From Lentibacillus halodurans (lineage in GTDB: Bacteria > Bacillota > Bacilli > Bacillales > Amphibacillaceae), in contig NZ_FOJW01000001.1 of assembly GCF_900112045.1 (NCBI RefSeq), positions 1-64,000 of the forward strand: a stretch of DNA of 64,000 nt, written 5' to 3'. Position numbers and translations under genes: made by a program. A model generated the notes under the pieces. That model was not told the DNA's origin. It saw nothing but the letters and a program-made list of their open reading frames with translations, and did no database searches. This document shows positions 1 to 58,974 of the stretch, piece by piece; within the stretch, counting starts at the first letter, position 1; every line of letters begins with the position of its first letter.

Positions 1-81
1 GTTAACTGTCTGTAAATGTCCGATTCTGTTCAACTAACATATAGCGGAGAAGACCGCTCCGCTATATGAAGTTTCACTTTA
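1..81 (-). repeat. Stop-codon-anchored hairpin repeat, copy a
   Basis: Full-length copy of an about 80-bp intergenic repeat found several times in this window, here read on the minus strand from TAAAGTGAAACTTC (81 down) to GTTAAC (6 down to 1). The central stem is CATATAGCGGA paired with TCCGCTATATG. The first three bases of the repeat (81-79) are the stop codon of the minus-strand membrane protein gene. The stem sequence differs from other copies on both arms together. The window begins at position 1, so the outer end may extend further. Confidence 0.8.
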
Positions 82-561
82 TTTTTTCTTTTTGAGCCAA
101 TATATTCCGATTCCGATCAATATGAGCGGCCAAAACCGTTCCAGCAATGCAGTTAAGTCATAAACCCAATCAAACGCTGCTGGTAATCTGATCGAAAAAA
201 TCAGAAGTATGGAGACTGCACTGATGATGATTCCGGTAAAGCCCCCCCGTTTTGTTCTCAGTCCGCGTACGATGAAGGCAATACCGACAATCAGCGGATA
301 AACGGCCCAGTGATCAATCCAGAATGTATAGTGGCTCAAACCGTGAAAATGGATGCCGAGTCCCAAAACAACTGTTCCGCTTAACAAATGCTGGTAATCC
401 CTTGATGTATAACTATGTATAAGTAATGCGATTCCAATTATAATAAGCAGTGTAGGCCAGGAAAAAAAATCGGTTATGATTGGAATCTTTAGCTCTCGTA
501 ATAAAAAGTAAACACCAATACCGATTAGTATATATGCAGCAAATGAATGTTGACGCTTCAA
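79..561 (-). CDS. LiaI/LiaF-like polytopic membrane protein
   Basis: Small integral membrane protein of about 160 residues with five to six hydrophobic segments and almost no soluble domain. Glycine-rich hydrophobic blocks such as LIGIGVYFLL at the N terminus and LILIGIGIYWL at the C terminus resemble the membrane region shared by LiaI/LiaF-like and DUF5668-type proteins; there is no C-terminal LiaF sensory domain. The TTG at 561 is preferred over the GTG at 570 because the GAAGG ribosome binding site directly abuts the GTG and is well spaced from the TTG. It is divergent from hemA. Its TAA stop coincides with the end of a dispersed hairpin repeat. Its function is unknown; a role in envelope stress sensing is only a family-based guess. 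Confidence 0.75.
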   Translation of the reverse strand: MKRQHSFAAYILIGIGVYFLLRELKIPIITDFFSWPTLLIIIGIALLIHSYTSRDYQHLLSGTVVLGLGIHFHGLSHYTFWIDHWAVYPLIVGIAFIVRGLRTKRGGFTGIIISAVSILLIFSIRLPAAFDWVYDLTALLERFWPLILIGIGIYWLKKKK

Positions 562-4808: not shown

Positions 4809-5789
4809 ATGACAAATGAATGGGAATTTAAGCGACACCGCCGTTTACGCTCTTCATCAGCAATGCGGTCGCTTGTCCGTGAGAATCATTTGAAAATGGA
4901 TGATTTCATTTATCCGCTTTTCATCATTGAAGGGGAAAACATAAAACATGAAGTGCCATCCATGCCAGGTGTTTACCAAATTTCACTTGACCATGTTAAA
5001 GCGGAGATGGAAGAACTGCAATCACTCGGAATTAAAGCGGTCATGCTGTTTGGTGTCCCGAATGAGAAAGACGAACAGGGTACCGGTGCATTTATTGAAA
5101 GCGGGATTGTACAGCAGGCAACGCGTCTTATCAAACAGGAAATTCCGGAAATGCTTGTAGTTGCAGATACATGCCTGTGTGAATATACATCACACGGTCA
5201 TTGCGGCGTTATTCACCATCATGATGTCGATAATGACGAGTCACTGAAATTGCTCGCTAAAACAGCCGTATCACAGGCGGAAGCTGGAGCAGATATCATT
5301 GCGCCTTCGAATATGATGGACGGATTTGTCAAGGTCATTCGCCAGGCATTGGATGAAGCAGGGTTTCATAACATTCCAATCATGTCCTATGCAGTCAAAT
5401 ATGCATCGGCATTCTTCGGTCCATTCCGGGATGCTGCAGACAGTACACCACAGTTTGGCGACCGTAAAACCTATCAGATGGATCCGTCAAACCGCCTGGA
5501 AGCATTGCGGGAGGCAGAAACAGATATTGAAGAGGGTGCAGACTTCCTGATTGTCAAACCGGCCCTATCATTTTTGGACATTGTCCGTGATGTACGCAAC
5601 AATTCTAATGCACCAGTGGTAGCGTATAATGTAAGCGGGGAGTATGCCATGGTAAAAGCCGCTGCCTTGAACGGCTGGATCGATGAAAAGGAACTAGTGC
5701 TGGAAAAACTGACCTCCATGAAACGGGCAGGTGCAGATTTAATCATTTCCTATTTTGCTAAAGACGTTGCAAAATGGCTTCAGGAATAA
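4809..5789 (+). CDS. hemB: Porphobilinogen synthase (5-aminolevulinate dehydratase)
   Basis: Condenses two 5-aminolevulinate molecules to porphobilinogen. 326 residues. The zinc-binding cysteine cluster is present in [14 protein letters not shown] (about residues 120-133), marking the zinc-dependent type. The two active-site lysines are in [11 protein letters not shown] (about residue 197) and [13 protein letters not shown] (about residue 250; Schiff-base lysine). It starts five bases after hemD. Its TAA stop is also the first triplet of a decayed copy of the hairpin repeat that fills the gap to hemL. Confidence 0.97.
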
Positions 5790-5866
5790 AGTGAATCTTC
5801 ACTCAGCGAAGGCATTCCTTATCCCTGTTGTTTCATAGTTTGAGTCGGGTGTGACTGACAGTTGAT
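5787..5866 (+). repeat. Decayed copy h of the hairpin repeat
   Basis: Diverged full-length copy beginning with TAAAGTGAATCTTCACTCAG at the hemB stop codon and ending in GACAGTTGAT, matching both ends and the AGTTTGAGTCGGG block of the intact copies (which read AGTTGAACCGAATCGG). The right stem arm is no longer complementary to the left, so the hairpin is probably lost. The rest of the hemB-hemL gap, to 5960, shows only the hemL ribosome binding site. Confidence 0.6.
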
Positions 5867-5960
5867 TTCGATTATCATCCCGAATATACCCCGGGGGGAA
5901 AAGAAGGGTCTCTTACTGCCACTTTATATGCGGGATAAAATTTTCAAATTGAGGTGATGT

Positions 5961-9967: not shown

Positions 9968-9995
9968 GAAATATAATATTTAAATAGCCTGTAAA

Positions 9996-10238
9996 TGCAA
10001 TGATTGGGAAGAGTACAGAGTGAATTGCCCTAAAAGAGAGGGAATGTATGGTGGAAATTTCCCGGGATGAATGATTCTGGAAGGTCGCCCATGATGCTGC
10101 ATCTTTGAACTCAGTAGAAGAGTGCCGGTCACTGTCCGTTAACACGTCAAGAGTGCATAGGCTCCTATTGTCTATGAATAAAGGTGGTACCACGGAATCA
10201 AATCCTTTTCGTCCTTGTCGGATGGAAGGGTTTTTTTA
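9996..10238 (+). promoter_or_regulatory. T-box riboswitch, valine type, upstream of valS
   Basis: Full T-box leader. The base of stem I pairs GCAATGATTGGG with CCCATGATGC. The loop-E bases AGTA (10012-10015) face GAAG, followed by the specifier triplet GTC (10084-10086), a valine codon. The AG-rich bulge AAGAGAGGG is present. The T-box sequence AAAGGTGGTACCACGG occupies 10180-10195 and is followed by a terminator (AATCCTTTTCGTCC paired with GGATGGAAGGGTT, then seven T) at 10201-10237. Uncharged tRNA-Val should stabilise the antiterminator and turn on valS. Confidence 0.93.
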
Positions 10239-24426: not shown

Positions 24427-24575
24427 GTTATTCATTGTAGCACCAGTGCTACAACCGCTCAGAACAGGTTTGTAAATTCCTTTTGGTGTATGCTAAAAAA
24501 AAGAGAATGAAACTGCACTTTTTGAATAATCCCCACGGGAATACCTGCATGGCGAGTCTTGGTAATATAGGGAGG
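24427..24575 (+). promoter_or_regulatory. Ribosomal protein L21 leader RNA
   Basis: The untranslated leader of rplU contains the hairpin TGTAGCAC-cag-TGCTACA and further paired blocks up to GGGAGGTGC, the rplU ribosome binding site. Bacillaceae rplU leaders are a described RNA family thought to give autogenous control by L21. The match here is by position and general structure, not by a profile search. Confidence 0.6.
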
Positions 24576-31887: not shown

Positions 31888-31925
31888 AACAAAGTGTCAT
31901 ATTGATTGAATGTATGACACTTTGT
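31888..31925 (+). terminator. Long hairpin downstream of the CoxA-like gene
   Basis: Perfect 14-base inverted repeat AACAAAGTGTCATA / TATGACACTTTGTT with a 10-base loop, 70 bases after the stop codon. It is followed by AATTCAG rather than a T run, so it may be a terminator or part of a decayed mobile repeat. Confidence 0.5.
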
Positions 31926-31973
31926 TAATTCAGAAATGGGATAAGGCGCCCCACTGAATGAAGTTTCACTTTT
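31924..31973 (-). repeat. Partly decayed copy b of the hairpin repeat
   Basis: On the minus strand it reads AAAGTGAAACTTCATTCAGTGG, identical in its left half to other copies. The partner arm is partly lost (TTCAG-aaat-GGG opposite CCC-a-CTGAA), so the stem is imperfect. It lies 70 bases from a nearly intact copy in the same orientation. Confidence 0.6.
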
Positions 31974-32042
31974 CCCCGGTGCAATCGTCCGTAGACTCCC
32001 GTCTTCAAATCATGCAGTAAAATGAATATGATCTGATCGGTA

Positions 32043-32124
32043 GTTAACGGAGGCTAACACCCCGATTCTGTTCAACTAACATTCAGCGGGGGCAAAACAT
32101 CCCGCTGAATGAAGTTTCACTTTA
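32043..32124 (-). repeat. Stop-codon-anchored hairpin repeat, copy c
   Basis: Full-length 82-base copy running on the minus strand from TAAAGTGAAAC (32124 down) to GTTAAC (32048 down to 32043). The stem is CATTCAGCGGG / CCCGCTGAATG. Unlike other copies it is not next to a stop codon: both neighbouring genes are on the plus strand. The 31818-32188 gap otherwise holds copy b, the 14-bp hairpin and the yebC ribosome binding site. Confidence 0.8.
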
Positions 32125-32188
32125 TTGATTGTGTCTTTTTTGATATAGTTAATAAGGGAATTTTTGCGGAGTGAGAGGAGAATGTCTT

Positions 32189-32920: not shown

Positions 32921-32990
32921 TCAAAGTGAAACTTCTATTCTGCTTTTCTGAGGATGGAAGTTTTCTTTCTTCCGTCAAAGTTCAGTTATG
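32918..32990 (+). repeat. Doubtful remnant of the hairpin repeat after yebC
   Basis: After the yebC TAA stop the sequence reads TCAAAGTGAAACTTCTATTC and, some 70 bases on, CAGTTATGTT, matching both ends of the repeat loosely. GAAACTTC and GAAGTTTTC can pair and could act as a weak terminator. Similarity is too low to be certain. Confidence 0.3.
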
Positions 32991-35974: not shown

Positions 35975-36075
35975 GTTGGTCACAAAGGTGTTGCCATATG
36001 ATAAGGAATGCTGCGGCAGTAACACATCGCACGAAGAAAATTGCGTATGCATTTTCGAGGGATCTATGTATTCAG
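35975..36075. repeat. Repeat family B, copy 1
   Basis: Block containing GGCAGTAACACATCGCACG, AAGAAAA and TTTTCGAGGGA. It aligns with 51125-51241, which has GGCAGCGTTACTTCGCACG, AAGAAAA and TTTTTCGAGGA in the same order. The AAGAAAA and TTTTCG arms can form a hairpin. It lies in the 282-base queA-tgt gap, which shows no gene. Confidence 0.6.
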
Positions 36076-47796: not shown

Positions 47797-48007
47797 ATTC
47801 TTATTCGCAGTAAGGGTGAAATGATGAAACGACTTGAACCTGAATGCGAACAGTTTTTCCTTTACATTTCTTCAATATTTTTTAATACTATACACAATAG
47901 AAGTGGCTGTCTCTTTCTTTTCTTTGAATTAGGTGAAATAAACTATACAAGCTGGTAAACCGGATACTGTCAATAAAACGCATTGCTAAGTGAATTCAGG
48001 TGATTTT

Positions 48008-50215
48008 ATGGCTAAAGAAGAAACGTTAACAAGTGAAGAAGTGATTGATAAAGCCCGGCGGTATCTATCAGAAGAGGATGCGGATTATCTTCGTCGTGCA
48101 TATGAATTTGCCGCGGATGCTCACAGAGATCAATTCAGGAAATCAGGTGAACCTTATATTGTTCATCCGATTCAGGTCGCCGGGATTCTGGTTGATCTTG
48201 AAATGGATCCGGTAACGATAGCAGGCGGTTTCTTACATGATGTTGTCGAGGATACGGATGTAACACTGGAGATATTGGAAGATTCATTTAACCATGAACT
48301 GGCAATGCTCGTCGATGGTGTTACCAAACTTGGCAAAATAAAATATAAATCGAAGGAAGCACTCCAGGCAGAGAATCACCGTAAAATGTTTGTTGCGATG
48401 GCCAGGGATATCCGGGTTATTTTGATTAAGCTTGCTGACCGGCTGCATAATATGCGCACTTTAAAACATTTACCGTCTGAAAAACAGCGCAGAATTTCCA
48501 ATGAAACATTAGAAATATTTGCGCCATTAGCTCACCGGCTGGGAATATCGACGATTAAATGGGAACTGGAAGATACTGCATTACGCTACCTGAATCCCCA
48601 ACAGTATTACAGAATTGTTCAGCTGATGAAACAAAAACGGGAAGAACGGGAATCTTATATCGTTGAAGTTATTGATGAATTGAAGCATCAATTGAACGAT
48701 GTCAATATTGAGGCAGATATTTCGGGAAGACCGAAGCATTTATACAGTATTTATCGCAAAATGGCCAAGCAAAATAAGCAGTTTAATGAAATTTATGACC
48801 TGCTGGCAGTACGGATTCTCGTTCATAGTATAAAAGACTGTTACGCCGTTCTTGGGATCATTCATACATGCTGGAAACCGATGCCGGGCAGATTCAAAGA
48901 TTATATCGCTATGCCCAAGCCAAATCTTTATCAGTCATTGCATACAACTGTCATTGGCCCAAAAGGTGATCCGCTGGAAGTTCAAATCCGTACAAAAGAA
49001 ATGCATGAAATTGCGGAATATGGAATTGCAGCACATTGGGCTTATAAGGAAGGAAAGCACTTATCGAAGGAAAATAAATCGTTTGAGGACAAATTAACCT
49101 GGTTCCGTGAAATTCTTGACTGGCAAAGTGAGACACATGATGCGGAAGAGTTTATGGAAACATTGAAAGTGGATTTATTTTCCGATATGGTTTATGTTTT
49201 TACCCCCAAAGGTGATGTTGTTGAGCTTCCGTCCGGTTCAGTGCCACTCGATTTTGCCTACCGGATTCATACGGAAGTCGGCAATAAGACAATTGGCGCA
49301 AAAGTGAATGGAAAAATGGAACCGCTCGACTATCAGCTGAAAAATGGGGACATTGTGGAAGTCATGACCTCAAAACATTCCTATGGACCCTCACAAGACT
49401 GGCTGTCGATCACCCAGACGTCACAGGCGAAAAATAAAATTAAACAATTTTTTAAAAAGCAGCGTCGTGATGAAAATATCAGCAAAGGCAAAGAGGCTGT
49501 CGACAAAGAGATCCGGGCACTTGGAATCGAGCCTAAGGAAGTATTGACACAAGACAATTTAAACCGTGTATTTGAAAAATTTAACTTTTCCAATGAAGAA
49601 GACATGTATGCTGCAGTCGGATATCAGGGCATTACAGCTGCATTGATCGCAACACGTTTGACAGATAAGGTGCGTCAGGCCAGACAAAAAGAGCAAAACC
49701 TTGAAGATACCATTGAAGAGGTCAAAAATGATACAAATACAGTAACGAAAAAAGTGCAAAAAAGGGATTCGGGTGTGAAAGTTGAAGGTGTCGATAATTT
49801 ATTAGTACGCCTGTCCAAATGCTGCAACCCGGTACCCGGTGATCCGATTGTCGGTTATATTACGAAAGGCAGAGGTGTATCGGTTCACCGTACGGATTGC
49901 CCCAATGTCCAGACAGAAGATGTTAGACAGCGTCTGCTTCATGTTGAATGGGAAAATAGCCCTACAGACAAAAAACAGTACCATGTTGATTTGGAAATAT
50001 CTGGATATGATCGTCGAGGGCTTGTAAATGAAGTATTACAGGCGGTAAATGAAACAAAAACAAATATTACGTATGTGAACGGCCGCTCCGATCGAAATAG
50101 AATGGCTGTTATTCACATCACGATTCTGATTCATAATACTGGGCATTTAAAACGGATCGTCGACAGAATTAAGCAGATAAAAGATGTTTACACTGTAACA
50201 CGTACTACACAATAA
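48008..50215 (+). CDS. relA: Bifunctional (p)ppGpp synthetase/hydrolase Rel
   Basis: Stringent-response enzyme that makes and degrades (p)ppGpp. About 735 residues: HD hydrolase domain (about residues 25-190, with [13 protein letters not shown]), synthetase domain (about residues 235-345, with [20 protein letters not shown]), TGS ([20 protein letters not shown], about residues 390-450), zinc-finger region ([20 protein letters not shown]) and C-terminal ACT domain. Both catalytic motifs look intact, so it is the bifunctional Rel type. ATG 48008 follows AGGTGAT. Its TAA stop is the first triplet of a hairpin repeat. Confidence 0.97.
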
Positions 50216-50291
50216 AGTGAAACTTCATTCAGCGGACGTTTTTCCCGCTGAATGTTAGTTGAACCGAATCGGACCAATACAGGCAGTTGTT
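50213..50291 (+). repeat. Stop-codon-anchored hairpin repeat, copy d
   Basis: Starts at the relA TAA stop (TAAAGTGAAACTTC), stem ATTCAGCGG / CCGCTGAAT around the loop ACGTTTTTC, then TTAGTTGAACCGAATCGG and ends CAGGCAGTTGTT. Near-identical to copies e and f. It is the first structure after relA and probably shapes the mRNA 3-prime end. Confidence 0.85.
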
Positions 50292-50293
50292 CC

Positions 50294-50400
50294 AAGGAAC
50301 AAAGGCTAAAAACGCAACATCCCTGTTGCAACGCCTTTGTGACATGCATCTTGCAAGCCCGAACAAAATCGAGCATGCAGGGTCAGTTATCCGTCGTTTT
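50294..50400. repeat. Nested palindromes between relA and dtd
   Basis: ACAAAGGC (50300-50307) pairs with GCCTTTGT, enclosing GCAAC-atccct-GTTGC-type pairing; just after it ATGCAT..ATGCAG repeats occur with GCAAGCCCGAAC between. Directly abuts repeat copy d. No gene is present; it may be an extension of a mobile element or a structured 3-prime region. Confidence 0.45.
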
Positions 50401-50466
50401 TTGGTGGGTTACTGATCATTCAACGGGGATAAGATATTTTGTTTTGGATAAAGGAGTCATGATACC

Positions 50467-50913
50467 ATGAAAGTCGTCATTCAGCGTGCGGAACAAGCCA
50501 GTGTGACAGTGAATGACTCGACGATAGGGGCCATTGATTATGGCCTTGTTGTTCTGCTGGGTGTTACACATGATGATACAGCAGAAGATGCAGACTACCT
50601 GGTTAACAAACTGGTTCATTTGCGGATTTTCGATGATGAAGATGGTAAAATGAATCGGTCATTAAAAGATGTTTCCGGCAAAGTACTGTCCATATCACAG
50701 TTCACGCTGCATGCTGATACACGGAAAGGGCGCTGTCCGAATTATATGAATGCTGCCAAACCGGAATTGGCAAATGAACTTTACGACTATTTTAATCAGC
50801 AGATCAAGCAGCATGATATTCAAGTGGAAACTGGTGAATTCGGACAAATGATGCAAGTTCAGTTAACCAATTCAGGTCCGGTAACACTCATCCTCGACAG
50901 CCACGATAGATAA
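50467..50913 (+). CDS. dtd: D-aminoacyl-tRNA deacylase
   Basis: Hydrolyses D-amino acids wrongly attached to tRNA. 148 residues, full length. The two family signatures are visible: [17 protein letters not shown] (about residues 78-94, SQFTL motif) and [13 protein letters not shown] (about residues 133-145, the cross-subunit Gly-Pro motif). Conserved after relA in Bacillus. Its TAA stop is the first triplet of repeat copy e. Confidence 0.96.
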
Positions 50914-50991
50914 AGTGAAACTTCATTCAGCGGAACGGGTTTCTCCGCTGAATGTTAGTTGAACCGAATCGGGCCAATACAGGCAGTTGTT
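50911..50991 (+). repeat. Stop-codon-anchored hairpin repeat, copy e
   Basis: 81-base copy starting at the dtd TAA stop. Stem CATTCAGCGGA / TCCGCTGAATG, followed by TTAGTTGAACCGAATCGGG and the end CAGGCAGTTGTT. Identical in the stem region to copy f 144 bases downstream. Confidence 0.88.
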
Positions 50992-51054
50992 TCCGTGTGG
51001 TTTAAGTTTTGTACAACATGTTAGTGTGGGAACTTAGTGCCTGTTGTGGCGGGA

Positions 51055-51250
51055 TAAAGTGAAACTTCATTCAGCGGAACGGGTTTCTCCGCTGAATGTT
51101 AGTTGAACCGAATCGGGCCAATACGACGCACAGGACGTGCTAGTGCCGATTATGCGACAGGACAAGGAAAGCTTCGGCAGCGTTACTTCGCACGAAGAAA
51201 AAGTGCTTTCCTTTTTCGAGGACGCCGCGTTATGATCGGTCAGGCAGTTG
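51055..51250 (+). repeat. Hairpin repeat copy f, interrupted
   Basis: Begins TAAAGTGAAACTTC and is identical to copy e up to CGGGCCAATAC (51124). The expected end AGGCAGTTGTT appears only at 51242, so about 117 bases are inserted. The inserted part is the second copy of repeat family B. This copy is not at a stop codon. Confidence 0.75.
51125..51241. repeat. Repeat family B, copy 2, inside repeat copy f
   Basis: Segment with GACAAGGAAAGCTTCGGCAG, ACTTCGCACGAAGAAAA and TTTTTCGAGGA in the same order as at 35975-36075. No clear target duplication is seen at the junctions. The remaining bases to 51341 hold no recognisable feature. Confidence 0.6.
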
Positions 51251-51341
51251 TTCCCTTGGATTTTATTTAGGTTCTTCTATTATCTGGATGTGAGGACCTG
51301 GTGTGGTTACATGCCCGATAACGGACGATGGATCATGATGA

Positions 51342-52412
51342 TCATTTTTCTTTTGTATTCTTCAGGTTGAAATATTGGCTTAGACCGGTAACAATTCCTG
51401 CTACCAGATTTTTTTGATAGCTGTTTGTTTTGAGAAGCTGTTCTTTTTCAGGATTAGAAATAAATCCGAGTTCTACGAGAATGGATGGCTGAAAGTTTTG
51501 CCTAATAACGTAGTAATCTTCATCTTGCACACCACGGTCAGTTGCTCCTGTTTTGCTGACTAACTCCTTTTGAACCAGTTTTGCAAGTTCTTCATACTGT
51601 TCGTGATAATAATAAGTTCCGATTCCTGTTACATCAGATGCTTTAGGAAAGCTGTTGTAATGGATACTTATAAAAGCATCTGCAGTTGTCAGATTGGATA
51701 AGCTTGGTCTGCTGGCAAGCGGAACAAACCGATCTTCTTCCCTCGTCAAAATGACTTCAGCACCAAGAATGCTCAATTCTTTTTCAAGTTCCTGCATCGT
51801 GCGGTATGTAAAATCTTTTTCATATGTTCCGCTAGCCCCGATTGCCCCAACATCACGTCCTCCATGTCCTGCATCTATGACGATTGTTTTATTTTCAAGT
51901 CCTGTTGCAATAGATGTCATTTGATGGTTGACAAAATCTTTAAATACATAACCGGTTATCTGCTCACTTGCAATGTTATACCAGTCACCGCTTTCTGCTA
52001 TGACATCGAATTCTTCTCCTTTTTCAGCATATCCGGCGATTTCATATTCAGTTGAGGGTCCATTTCGCAAATGGGTGTTGTCATGTTGAATCGTAATCGA
52101 TTTGTTGACTGTATCATTATTTGCAGACCTGTTTGCTGGATTTTCATCGGAGTCTCGATGTATGGATACGAACTCATCTGTTATCCAGCCGCTCCCATGC
52201 TCCATCTTGATTTCCACCCAGCCGTTTTCCTGGCTGAGAATCGGAAATGTCTCCCCGGTATGTACCTGGCCAATCTGATCAAAGTCTGTTCCCGGACCTG
52301 TCCGGACATTCAGGTTATCAGTGGCAATGATTGCTTCATCAGCTTGTACCACTGATACAAATGCAAAATAAAAAACAATAGCAAACAATATGGTGGATTT
52401 ATTCCGATGCAC
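51342..52412 (-). CDS. lytH: N-acetylmuramoyl-L-alanine amidase with two SH3b domains (LytH-like)
   Basis: 356 residues: signal peptide (about residues 1-24, ending VVQA), bacterial SH3 domain 1 (residues 28-86; LNVRTGPGTDFDQIG), SH3 domain 2 (residues 100-165; THLRNGPSTEYEIAG), then Amidase_3 (about residues 175-350). Zinc ligands and catalytic residues are visible in IDAGHGGRDVG, the glutamate of TYEKDF, ISIHYNS and ILVELGFISN. Exported cell-wall hydrolase. GTG 52412 follows AGGAGGAAC. Position between dtd and hisS, on the opposite strand, matches yrvJ of Bacillus subtilis; the LytH name is by similarity only. Confidence 0.87.
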   Translation of the reverse strand: MHRNKSTILFAIVFYFAFVSVVQADEAIIATDNLNVRTGPGTDFDQIGQVHTGETFPILSQENGWVEIKMEHGSGWITDEFVSIHRDSDENPANRSANNDTVNKSITIQHDNTHLRNGPSTEYEIAGYAEKGEEFDVIAESGDWYNIASEQITGYVFKDFVNHQMTSIATGLENKTIVIDAGHGGRDVGAIGASGTYEKDFTYRTMQELEKELSILGAEVILTREEDRFVPLASRPSLSNLTTADAFISIHYNSFPKASDVTGIGTYYYHEQYEELAKLVQKELVSKTGATDRGVQDEDYYVIRQNFQPSILVELGFISNPEKEQLLKTNSYQKNLVAGIVTGLSQYFNLKNTKEK

Positions 52413-52677: not shown

Positions 52678-52751
52678 CAACAAAAGTACGAAACATTAAT
52701 ATAGTAATCATTCAACACGATGTAAATAAAAGATGTAAATAAACAAAACCA

Positions 52752-53048
52752 GTGAAGGAAACAGTAATCAGATTGTTTATGCTAAGAGAGAAGATGTCAT
52801 CGGCTGGAAACATTTTTGCATAAGCCCTGATGAACGACATTCCTTAGGTTCTGTATCGAACAGAGGCTGGAAATTTCAGGTGACTTGTCTTGAAATCCGC
52901 TACACCCTCATCTGATCCGGTATGATACAAGTAGGTATAGACGTCTTGCAGGCGTTAACTGTGAAGAGCGGATGTTGGAAAACATCAACTAGGGTGGCAA
53001 CGCGGGCAGACTCCCGTCCCTTATTCAGTAAGGGATGGGAGTCTTTTG
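52752..53048 (+). promoter_or_regulatory. T-box riboswitch upstream of hisS-aspS, Asp specifier
   Basis: Stem I base AAGGAA pairs with TTCCTT; the loop-E bases AGTA (52763-52766) are opposite GAAC, followed by specifier GAC (52836-52838), an aspartate codon. Above it ATCAG pairs with CTGAT, and the AAGAGAG bulge is present. The T-box AACTAGGGTGGCAACGCGGG is at 52987-53006, and the terminator GACTCCC...GGGAGTC with nested TCCCTTA/TAAGGGA and TTTT is at 53009-53047. It should sense uncharged tRNA-Asp and control both synthetase genes. Confidence 0.92.
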
Positions 53049-56332: not shown

Positions 56333-56517
56333 TCAATCCTGATGTGTACGTCTGATACATTCGTTTTGACCGAACACTTATATAAACGGGAGCCTGCATA
56401 GGTTTTCATATTGCGTGCATGCCCCTTGGTCGGGGAAGCATAATAAATATGGAACAGGGCACCCACCTGCCAGGAGCGGGATCAAAACTGGAAAGCAGAC
56501 GGCACAATTGGGATTGA
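56333..56517 (+). ncRNA. ssrS: 6S RNA (SsrS/BsrA-type) candidate
   Basis: About 185 nt that fold into one long hairpin with a large central bubble, the 6S shape. Closing stem: TCAATCC pairs with GGATTGA, and GTGTACGTCTG with CAGACGGCAC (one bulge). The central bubble lies between these and the apical arm, where GCCT/AGGGC, CATATT/AATATG and ATGCCCC/GGGGAAGCAT pair in order. Location just after aspS matches bsrA (6S-1 RNA) of Bacillus subtilis. 6S RNA binds the sigma-A RNA polymerase holoenzyme as an open-promoter mimic. No profile search was possible; fold and synteny are the basis. Confidence 0.82.
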
Positions 56518-56564
56518 TAGATACATAAGACAGATGCAGAAAGTCGGAAGCTATCATTCAGAAA

Positions 56565-58676: not shown

Positions 58677-58785
58677 TTTAATCGTCCTTTGTATAAAATA
58701 ATAAGCTGTATATGTAAAAGCGTAATTCTGATTGTGTTAAAATGCAAGAAACAGGTCATTCGTGCTATAATATTTTGTATTGTTA

Positions 58786-58866
58786 TAAAGTGAAACTTCC
58801 ATCAGTGAGGTGCTCTTTCCCACTGATGGTTAGTTGAACAGAATCGGGGTGCTAGCGTCTGTTACT
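58786..58866 (+). repeat. Hairpin repeat copy g, variant stem
   Basis: Starts TAAAGTGAAACTTC, stem CCATCAGTG / CACTGATGG, then TTAGTTGAACAGAATCGGGG and an end GTGCTAGCGTCTGTTAC similar to copies a and c. Both arms of the stem have changed together relative to the CATTCAGCGG copies. It lies in the rarA-cymR divergent region, not next to a stop codon. Confidence 0.85.
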
Positions 58867-58974
58867 TCCACTTATACACATTTGTTTCACTTATTTTTTA
58901 GAAATGGGAGTGTTACGGACGGTTGCACCGGGATAAAGAATGGTGTACGTTTTAGATATCACGAGGTGTTATAA

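Follow-up and report, generated by a model that had tools for sequence, protein, structure and literature searches.

We analyzed a 64,000-nucleotide stretch of Lentibacillus halodurans DNA (hereafter the window), which corresponds to positions 1 to 64,000 of contig C17 in a 3.67-Mb draft assembly of 31 contigs. A sequence-only reading of this DNA had described a dispersed hairpin repeat of about 80 bp. Our results indicate that the repeat is probably a mobile DNA element that is non-autonomous and non-coding, measures about 150 bp, is built from two hairpins, and is bounded on both sides by the pentamer ATAAA. The true unit became apparent because array copies on contigs C22, C23, and C25 of the source genome repeat every 146 to 149 bases. 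Measured from ATAAA to ATAAA, the unit spans about 115 to 160 bp, and the 80 bp originally proposed comprise the left half of the element plus part of one arm of its second hairpin. Likewise, CAGTTGTT, which had been taken for an element end, represents no more than a portion of the 5′ arm of hairpin 2.

The layout of the unit is ATAAA-GTGAAACTTC-(hairpin 1)-GTTAGTTGAAC..ATCGG-(hairpin 2)-GGG-ATAAA, wherein hairpin 1 abuts the left ATAAA, a linker separates it from the long hairpin 2, and the two hairpins together occupy nearly the whole element. Below its core, hairpin 1 runs down to the ATAAA boundary as GT-GA-AACT / AGTT-GA-AC, and the opposed GA steps in this lower stem could form tandem G.A mismatches. 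The 5′ end ATAAAGTGAAACTTC and the 3′ end GCGGGATAAA do not form a mutual inverted repeat in 74 aligned copies. When units are arranged head to tail, each junction carries a single ATAAA that is common to both neighbors. We saw no gene inside the copies, in agreement with the initial observation that no long open frame is present.

The element is very likely mobile. In the window, the gap that separates mgsA from an Rrf2 gene reads TTGTTATAAA-(GTGAAAC...CACCGGGATAAA)-GAATGG and has two ATAAA pentamers, whereas the relative G052 reads TTGTTATAAAGAATATGG and has one ATAAA between the same flanks. The corresponding site in G043 likewise has one ATAAA, and in G049 this gap holds a lone inverted hairpin-1 remnant. 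The insert that lies between relA and dtd in the window is missing from 11 of 11 Lentibacillus relatives, whose gaps measure about 17 to 66 nt in ten cases and 142 nt in one. In G052, the relA stop sits within an ATAAA, and a decayed hairpin-1 remnant is retained at the dtd end, so the insertion at that end is probably older. Evidence from a distant genome (G202) is provided by three copies (L370, L371, and L372) that are 98 to 99% identical to each other, while the 100-nt flanks on each side are about 50% identical.

Insertion occurs at ATAAA, or TTTAT when read on the other strand. The pentamer is present at the start of 72 and at the end of 77 of 81 non-array copies, which were extracted by allowing up to two mismatches at the start and requiring [AG]TAAA at the end. 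Otherwise, the flanks are merely A/T-leaning, with an A (57%) following the 3′ ATAAA, and lack any other strong preference. A target-duplication test yielded ATAAA on both sides of the element and one ATAAA in the empty site. When one copy per array is counted, the end of a same-direction ORF (open reading frame) lies within 400 nt of 115 of 245 copies, and in 34 of the 245 the TAA within the left ATAAA is itself the stop codon of the ORF. In 10 further copies, the stop is instead the TGA within GTGA, five bases downstream. Within the window, relA, dtd, and hemB all stop at the ATAAA of an element. Insertions at stop codons leave the encoded protein intact, and therefore the survival of such copies without any host function would be explained.

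The hairpins are conserved as structures. The earlier proposal that both stem arms change together was borne out by a covariation test, in which double-sided changes were found in 10 of 11 hairpin-1 pairs. For 55 left halves from the source genome (48 distinct), hairpin 1 gave a covariation of 0.273, compared with 0.123 for shuffled alignments and no more than 0.151 for slid structures. When 74 full elements from many genera were aligned (alignment A4), covariation was found in hairpin 1 as well as in three hairpin-2 segments, with double changes in 28 of 36 pairs. Covariation in this set was 0.270 vs 0.118 for shuffled alignments (0 of 500 shuffles were as high) and at most 0.089 for slid structures. 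Note that A4 contains 74 of 80 proposed copies, as L113, L015, L049, L059, L063, and one of two L200 copies were dropped by eye as odd or redundant, a choice that may make the counts look better than they are. Pairing is weakest at the foot of hairpin 2 (columns 74–78 with 168–171), which is 73.6% paired and exhibits matching changes such as GCAT/ATGC, CCTT/AAGG, and GGTG/CACC. The lower pairs of hairpin 1 are nearly invariant in A4. In alignment A5, which comprises 32 sequences selected to contain lower-stem variants, the forms AACT/AGTT, ATCT/AGAT, and GACT/AGTC all keep pairing, double changes occur in 13 of 16 whole-hairpin pairs, and 98.0% of cells are paired. For two window copies, the minus strand folded as DNA scored better than 200 of 200 shuffles, with z values of -3.1 (the copy at 58785..58937) and -5.5. 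The statement that the hairpin itself is maintained holds across copies and genera.

The search of the genome and its relatives suggested in the sequence-only reading was conducted with a model of the left half and revealed that the element is widespread. The source genome carries 106 matches within one mismatch of the 14-mer end TAAAGTGAAACTTC, as opposed to 3 for the reversed pattern, and this end is thus far more frequent than expected by chance. Matches to the left-half model were found in 107 of 159 family genomes (34 of 46 genera) and in 87 of 299 order genomes (48 of 116 genera). In a phylum sample, 20 of 299 genomes matched, 17 of them outside the order, and some of these scores were weak. 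In 20 regions taken from ten genomes of the phylum sample, the left end and hairpin 1 were present in all 20, and a right end resembling GGATAAA or CGATAAA was recognized by reading in about 14. Tandem units also occur in two genomes of this sample (G545 and G605). Named carriers (at least 119 stretches) include Oceanobacillus, Lysinibacillus, Cytobacillus, Neobacillus, Peribacillus, Sporosarcina, and Psychrobacillus, and copy number within one genus ranges from zero model matches to more than 50 exact copies. Per-genome model counts are lower bounds (up to 33 or 17 candidates were scored per genome), and strongly diverged copies are undercounted because the end pattern was searched with 0 to 3 mismatches.

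Searches of phages and plasmids with a window copy gave no match, and a second query copy matched four plasmid records. In one of these four, a left-half match of 81% identity was observed at CP079755.1:221561-221624 (L312), in a record labeled Klebsiella grimontii pNY3A that may be mislabeled or mixed, and an exact element match was observed at a locus labeled as a 'Clostridiales bacterium' metagenome-assembled genome (L164). In the draft assembly of the source genome, at least 10 of 62 contig ends have a copy within about 130 nt (the ends of C5, C12, C19, and C26, the starts of C6, C8, C17, and C23, and both ends of C9), and runs of N adjoin copies at C12 near 8000 and at C17 near 378300. 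The assembly therefore probably breaks at longer element arrays.

The orientation of the element is related to the direction of replication. When GC skew was used to locate origins and termini, the strand reading TAAAGTG runs against the fork at 51 of 71 loci in Peribacillus loiseleuriae (G163; 51:20, p 3e-4) and at 24 of 35 loci in G052 (24:11, p 0.04). Pooling these two genomes with G043 gave 103 of 155 loci (103:52, p 5e-5). This replichore analysis covered these three genomes and left out G161 (20 copies; six GC-skew samples without a settled origin), G033, G077, G149, G159, G160, and G162, and for G023 there were no positions. Local GC skew at loci of at least 3 kb, a set that partly overlaps the three genomes, placed the TAAAGTG strand against the fork in 120 of 186 cases in the masked version of the count (120:66, p 9e-5), and other thresholds gave 131:79 and 99:57. 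The named loci alone yielded 83 of 127 (83:44, p 7e-4). A logistic model assigned -1.40 (-2.04 to -0.81) to skew and +1.03 (0.43 to 1.66) to coding direction, and thus the bias persists when gene direction is included. Therefore, the complementary strand, which starts with TTTATCCC and ends with CACTTTAT, tends to be the template for lagging-strand synthesis. Use of the lagging-strand template is characteristic of single-strand transposons such as IS608 and ISDra2.

We propose that the element could move via single-stranded DNA. The strand TTTAT-CCC-hairpin 2-hairpin 1-CACTTTAT, which tends to run with the fork, would be the lagging-strand template. An enzyme acting in trans would recognize the folded hairpins, cut at TTTAT, and rejoin the DNA at another TTTAT. 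Insertions that persist would be those located between genes or exactly at stop codons, the latter because ATAAA returns a TAA to the interrupted gene. We consider the chances of this single-strand, lagging-template route to be about even.

An alternative that differs from this proposal only with regard to the route is that the element is a relative of the bcr1–bcr3 repeats of the Bacillus cereus group, or that it shares a mobility system with them. This we regard as somewhat unlikely. The comparison was made by description rather than by sequence. The parts of PMC6542083 on which it is based describe a common TTTAT motif, which is the reverse complement of ATAAA and therefore a trait that our element has at its ends, as well as a similar length and no known recombinase. 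The length of bcr1 appears as 167 or 147 bp in an excerpt of PMC2267715. However, PMC6542083 describes bcr1 as confined to the B. cereus group and as occurring on plasmids as well, whereas our element spans many Bacillales and other Bacillota, and when 72,556 plasmid records were searched by blastn with two distinct copies of it (E limits of 1e-5 and 0.01), no B. cereus-group plasmid matched. Moreover, an excerpt of PMC3733652 lists bcr1 among the miniature inverted-repeat transposable elements (MITEs) with terminal inverted repeats, which our element lacks.

A second alternative concerns the covariation only. Paired change between the arms had been taken to imply that the hairpin is maintained, but paired change alone is no proof of selection because hairpin-templated DNA repair (quasi-palindrome correction) can also alter both arms together. 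In keeping with such repair, mismatches in the stem cores show no significant strand asymmetry, and the stems are near-perfect, as the pairing in A5 illustrates. On the other hand, the core and lower stem stay conserved across the phylum even as the flanking pairs vary, hairpin 2 co-varies despite having arms that are tens of bases apart, and templated correction could add to selection without replacing it. We judge it unlikely that repair accounts for the paired changes in place of selection.

The element might instead be mobilized in trans by Y1 (HUH) transposases of the IS200/IS605 type or the REP-associated tyrosine transposase (RAYT) type, as is the case for palindrome-associated transposable elements (PATEs) and repetitive extragenic palindromic sequences (REPs), with the enzyme being gained and lost. 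The absence of terminal inverted repeats, the subterminal hairpins, the short target fixed on one side, and the lagging-template orientation all point in this direction. In addition, Y1_Tnp matches are present in 117 of 156 family genomes, and five of eight high-copy genomes have Y1 matches of 187 to 341 amino acids that are RAYT-like by reading. Yet no Y1_Tnp match is present in G043, which has 52 exact copies, or in G104, which has at least 33 model matches. G045 has an unbroken Y1_Tnp (2e-37) and zero model matches, and the source genome has only a broken fragment of 47 amino acids, with no TnpB match. The search for an IS200/RAYT partner that the sequence-only reading had recommended revealed no Y1 locus with matching ends. 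Specifically, clear element ends were absent from the ends of all 30 best-scoring Y1 loci, which were the best locus in each of 30 of the 117 genomes with a match and leave most Y1 matches outside the set, and from the ends of 17 further Y1 loci (0 of 47). Those 17 loci come from six high-copy genomes and include 10 that are RAYT-like by reading, and within flanks of up to 1.5 kb none was clearly a RAYT gene flanked by repeats. One Y1 match (L259) has two element copies at distances of about 0.23 and 1.3 kb. The presence of Y1_Tnp does not track that of the element, and because carriers such as G043 and G104 lack it and the Y1 loci fetched lack clear element ends, Y1_Tnp was rejected as the general partner, although a lost or undetected Y1 enzyme may have acted in some cases. 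The mobilizing enzyme is not obviously an IS200/IS605 or RAYT Y1 transposase, and we find it quite unlikely that these enzymes move the element.

Least probable is that the element is a functional RNA, such as a 3′ untranslated region stabilizer, an attenuator, or a small RNA precursor, kept by structural selection: this would fit the strong covariation, the opposed G.A steps of the lower stem, the location at gene ends, and the Rfam RNA nested inside some copies, but it is improbable given that the stem cores show no significant G.U excess, that neither orientation with respect to the flanking genes predominates (++ 45, -- 45, +- 33, and -+ 25 of 176, with 27 uncalled and 1 inside an ORF), that copy number varies so widely within one genus, and that a terminator scan of positions 50000-51600 detected nothing terminator-like on the element itself and one match in a nested cassette on the minus strand. 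The base-pair criterion is informative because a strand kept as RNA should tolerate G.U more than A.C. The ratio of G.T to A.C was 31:21 in the stem cores (p 0.21), 12:12 in the source genome, 22:27 in the foot of hairpin 2, and 20:21 in its upper part, and an alignment-free stem walk over 232 distinct hairpins gave 23:13 (p 0.13). RNA-level selection, which had been offered as one option, is not shown by these values, and the hairpins likely act at the level of DNA.

Several observations weigh against our interpretation of the repeat as a hairpin-bearing element that moves as single-stranded DNA. The enzyme was not found, and no gene-bearing copy was detected at loci of at least 2.5 kb, where the left and right ends are no more than 492 bp apart. 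At these loci, the distance to the right end is at most 260 bp for 125 left ends and 265 to 492 bp for 8, and 160 left ends have no recognized right end next to them. (At L242, the ends are 495 bp apart, and this locus looks like two copies run together.) Because the same five bases are nearly always involved, a 5-bp target duplication is inseparable from a fixed target combined with a fixed end, as in TTTAT-adjacent insertion. In G399, eight of eight copies read (L353–L360) lie within a larger repeat with shared flanks, and therefore the element was amplified there as a passenger by hitch-hiking. Tandem units can also arise through replication slippage instead of transposition. The orientation bias is only moderate, with the 28 of 49 loci against the fork in G043 (28:21, p 0.39) not being significant alone, and a similar bias is known for other element classes such as Tn7 and group II introns. 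Furthermore, the weak foot of hairpin 2 starts 3 nt from TTTAT, unlike the layouts of IS608 and ISDra2. Finally, the slight excess of G.T in the stem cores is accompanied by a clear one in the aligned tips of hairpin 1 (37:14, p 0.002), so a lean towards an RNA role remains, although the excess at the tip may result from misregister of stems of unequal length.

All of the intact or interrupted copies first listed for the window, at 1-81 (minus strand), 32043-32124 (minus strand), 50213, 50911, 51055, and 58786, are present. The 14-mer end has six exact and three one-mismatch matches in the window, and the one-mismatch match at 32922 was excluded as an element, having no hairpin or GTTAG behind it. 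The copy at 1..82 (minus strand; R1 model match at 20-82, 84.2 bits) comprises the left half and the start of hairpin 2 and is cut by the contig start. The decayed copy that had been placed at 5787-5866 is indeed decayed but forms part of a full-length element at 5786..5939 (plus strand), which has its 3′ end TATATGCGGGATAAA at 5925-5939 and an ATAAA that gives hemB (ORF 4809-5789; ALAD domain) its TAA stop. A tandem pair on the minus strand has as its first unit a full-length element at 31970..32125 (R1 match at 32062-32125, 85.0 bits; 3′ end GGGGAAAA), and this is directly adjoined by a second unit at 31924..31974 that is truncated in hairpin 1. The sequence at 31924-31973 had been recognized as a decayed copy, and it is present, but as this truncated second unit and not as a separate copy.

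The composite element between relA and dtd extends from 50212 to 50433 (plus strand; R1 match at 50212-50272, 84.9 bits) and supplies relA (ORF 47990-50215) with its stop TAA through ATAAA. Nested in it at 50290..50357 (plus strand) is a cassette of the Rfam family Bacillaceae-1 (RF01690), which scored 61.5 bits against a gathering score of 35. A second tandem pair, also on the plus strand, follows dtd. Its unit A is a full-length element at 50910..51058 (R1 match at 50910-50972, 86.6 bits; 3′ end at 51058) with an ATAAA that gives dtd (ORF 50467-50913) its stop TAA. Unit B, at 51054..51322 (R1 match at 51054-51116, 86.6 bits), has a left half that is identical to that of unit A over 72 nt (100%), followed by a nested cassette, a decayed hairpin 2, and a 3′ end whose position was assigned by eye. 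An interrupted copy had been proposed at 51055-51250. The copy is confirmed, and its interruption proved to be the cassette at 51125..51240 (minus strand), which is Bacillaceae-1-like, reverse in orientation, and itself interrupted. This cassette falls below the Rfam threshold and was delimited by by-eye comparison with the uninterrupted copies L070, L066, and L005. It carries its own third-level insert, a 60-nt hairpin of repeat family D2 at 51163..51222 (no strand assigned) that lies between AGGA and C in the segment corresponding to the terminal loop of the cassette. The remaining full-length element, which occupies the mgsA–Rrf2 gap with its empty site in two relatives, is at 58785..58937 (plus strand; R1 match at 58785-58847, 82.8 bits; 3′ end at 58937).

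Nesting of this kind is common. The source genome has 36 matches to Bacillaceae-1, on both strands, of which 33 are above the gathering score, and 21 of the 30 matches examined have element parts within 300 nt. As a control with 600 random stretches of the same length, 42 were near element parts in two relatives and 100 in the element-rich window. In 18 loci of other genera, which were chosen because their elements carry inserts, seven of seven Bacillaceae-1 matches are inside an element. In general, the cassette can lie in either orientation within its host element. Other hairpin modules fill the same place, some of them as tandem 54-bp copies (L222, L209, and L178). Modules of about 54 bp, with a hairpin around TTTCTAAGGGCT-GAAG-CCCTAAGAAA, were often seen in tandem in the element linkers of several Bacillaceae, including L241 in addition to these three. 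A third-level hairpin of 56 to 61 nt between AGGA and C, the segment that forms the terminal loop in uninterrupted cassettes, is present in the window insert at 51163-51222, in L091, in L066 (with a decayed flank), and twice in L149. A loose pattern gave ten matches for this insert, and the other five are elsewhere or decayed, including one at window position 35998. A degraded copy of the third-level hairpin insert was observed at 35992-36060 of the window, beside a Bacillaceae-1-like fragment. The consensus of the Bacillaceae-1 loops is RUCCU.

In the loci examined, Bacillaceae-1 is mostly a nested passenger cassette. As a tentative and rather unlikely extension, Bacillota may hold widespread, nested hairpin elements that are transposed as single strands by an enzyme that is not among the recognized transposases and may be host-encoded, wherein level 1 targets ATAAA, level 2 (including Bacillaceae-1) enters the linker or hairpin 2, and level 3 enters the RUCCU loops of level 2. 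If so, the loops that are conserved in Bacillaceae-1 would serve as insertion sites in DNA, and the family itself would be a mobile cassette of DNA and not a regulatory RNA. The window also has ordinary RNA features at 9991-10219, 52743-53024, 56333-56518, and 24443-24569 (two T-box leaders, a 6S RNA, and an L21 leader).

A mobile non-coding repeat with about 100 copies in a single genome and carriers across the phylum would affect the ends of genes, the spacing of operons, and the assembly of genomes. From its fixed target, its folded ends, its orientation relative to the fork, and the lack of an enzyme, a precise search for a new mobilizing activity can be defined. The Bacillaceae-1 entry in Rfam needs to be re-read, given its mostly nested status in the loci examined.

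The sequence-only reading did not recognize the repeat as a named element, and our comparisons agree. Window copies match no Rfam family except the nested Bacillaceae-1, no description was found in the open-licence literature, and a full-text search for five motifs matched only two unrelated human cancer papers, one motif each. The element is probably a modular, hairpin-based, non-autonomous mobile repeat, a kind that is already known, and the host element has no Rfam family of its own. MITEs derived from DDE transposons are defined by terminal inverted repeats, and among the 74 aligned copies the element has none. REPs and bacterial interspersed mosaic elements (BIMEs) with RAYT, and PATEs with IS200/IS605, are hairpin-based non-autonomous repeats that lack terminal inverted repeats and bear a lagging-strand signature. 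The element shares with IS200/IS605-type PATEs its subterminal hairpins, a short target fixed on one side, the lack of terminal inverted repeats, and the bias towards the lagging-strand template. Unlike PATEs, it has no IS200/IS605 element with matching ends among the Y1 loci fetched. It differs from REPs and BIMEs in having no GTAG tag and two large hairpins instead of one short palindrome, and from both REP/RAYT and PATE systems in that no partner gene is flanked by copies among the loci fetched and in that it is present in genomes without a Y1_Tnp match. (The association between REPs and RAYTs is treated in an excerpt of PMC3733652.)

Judged by architecture, the closest counterpart is BOX of Streptococcus pneumoniae, which has the arrangement boxA-(boxB)n-boxC. 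According to PMC3049150, BOX has a constant module on the left and another on the right, between which the number of stem-loop modules varies, is present in high copy, exhibits mutual insertion, has been proposed to be mobilized in trans, and has terminal inverted repeats resembling those of ISSpn2. Our element differs in lacking terminal inverted repeats, in having ATAAA at both ends, in its hosts, and in its nested cassettes, which include Bacillaceae-1. Like BOX, it has outer modules that are fixed and inner hairpin modules that can be exchanged for one another, the latter in tandem in some copies, as in L222, L209, and L178.

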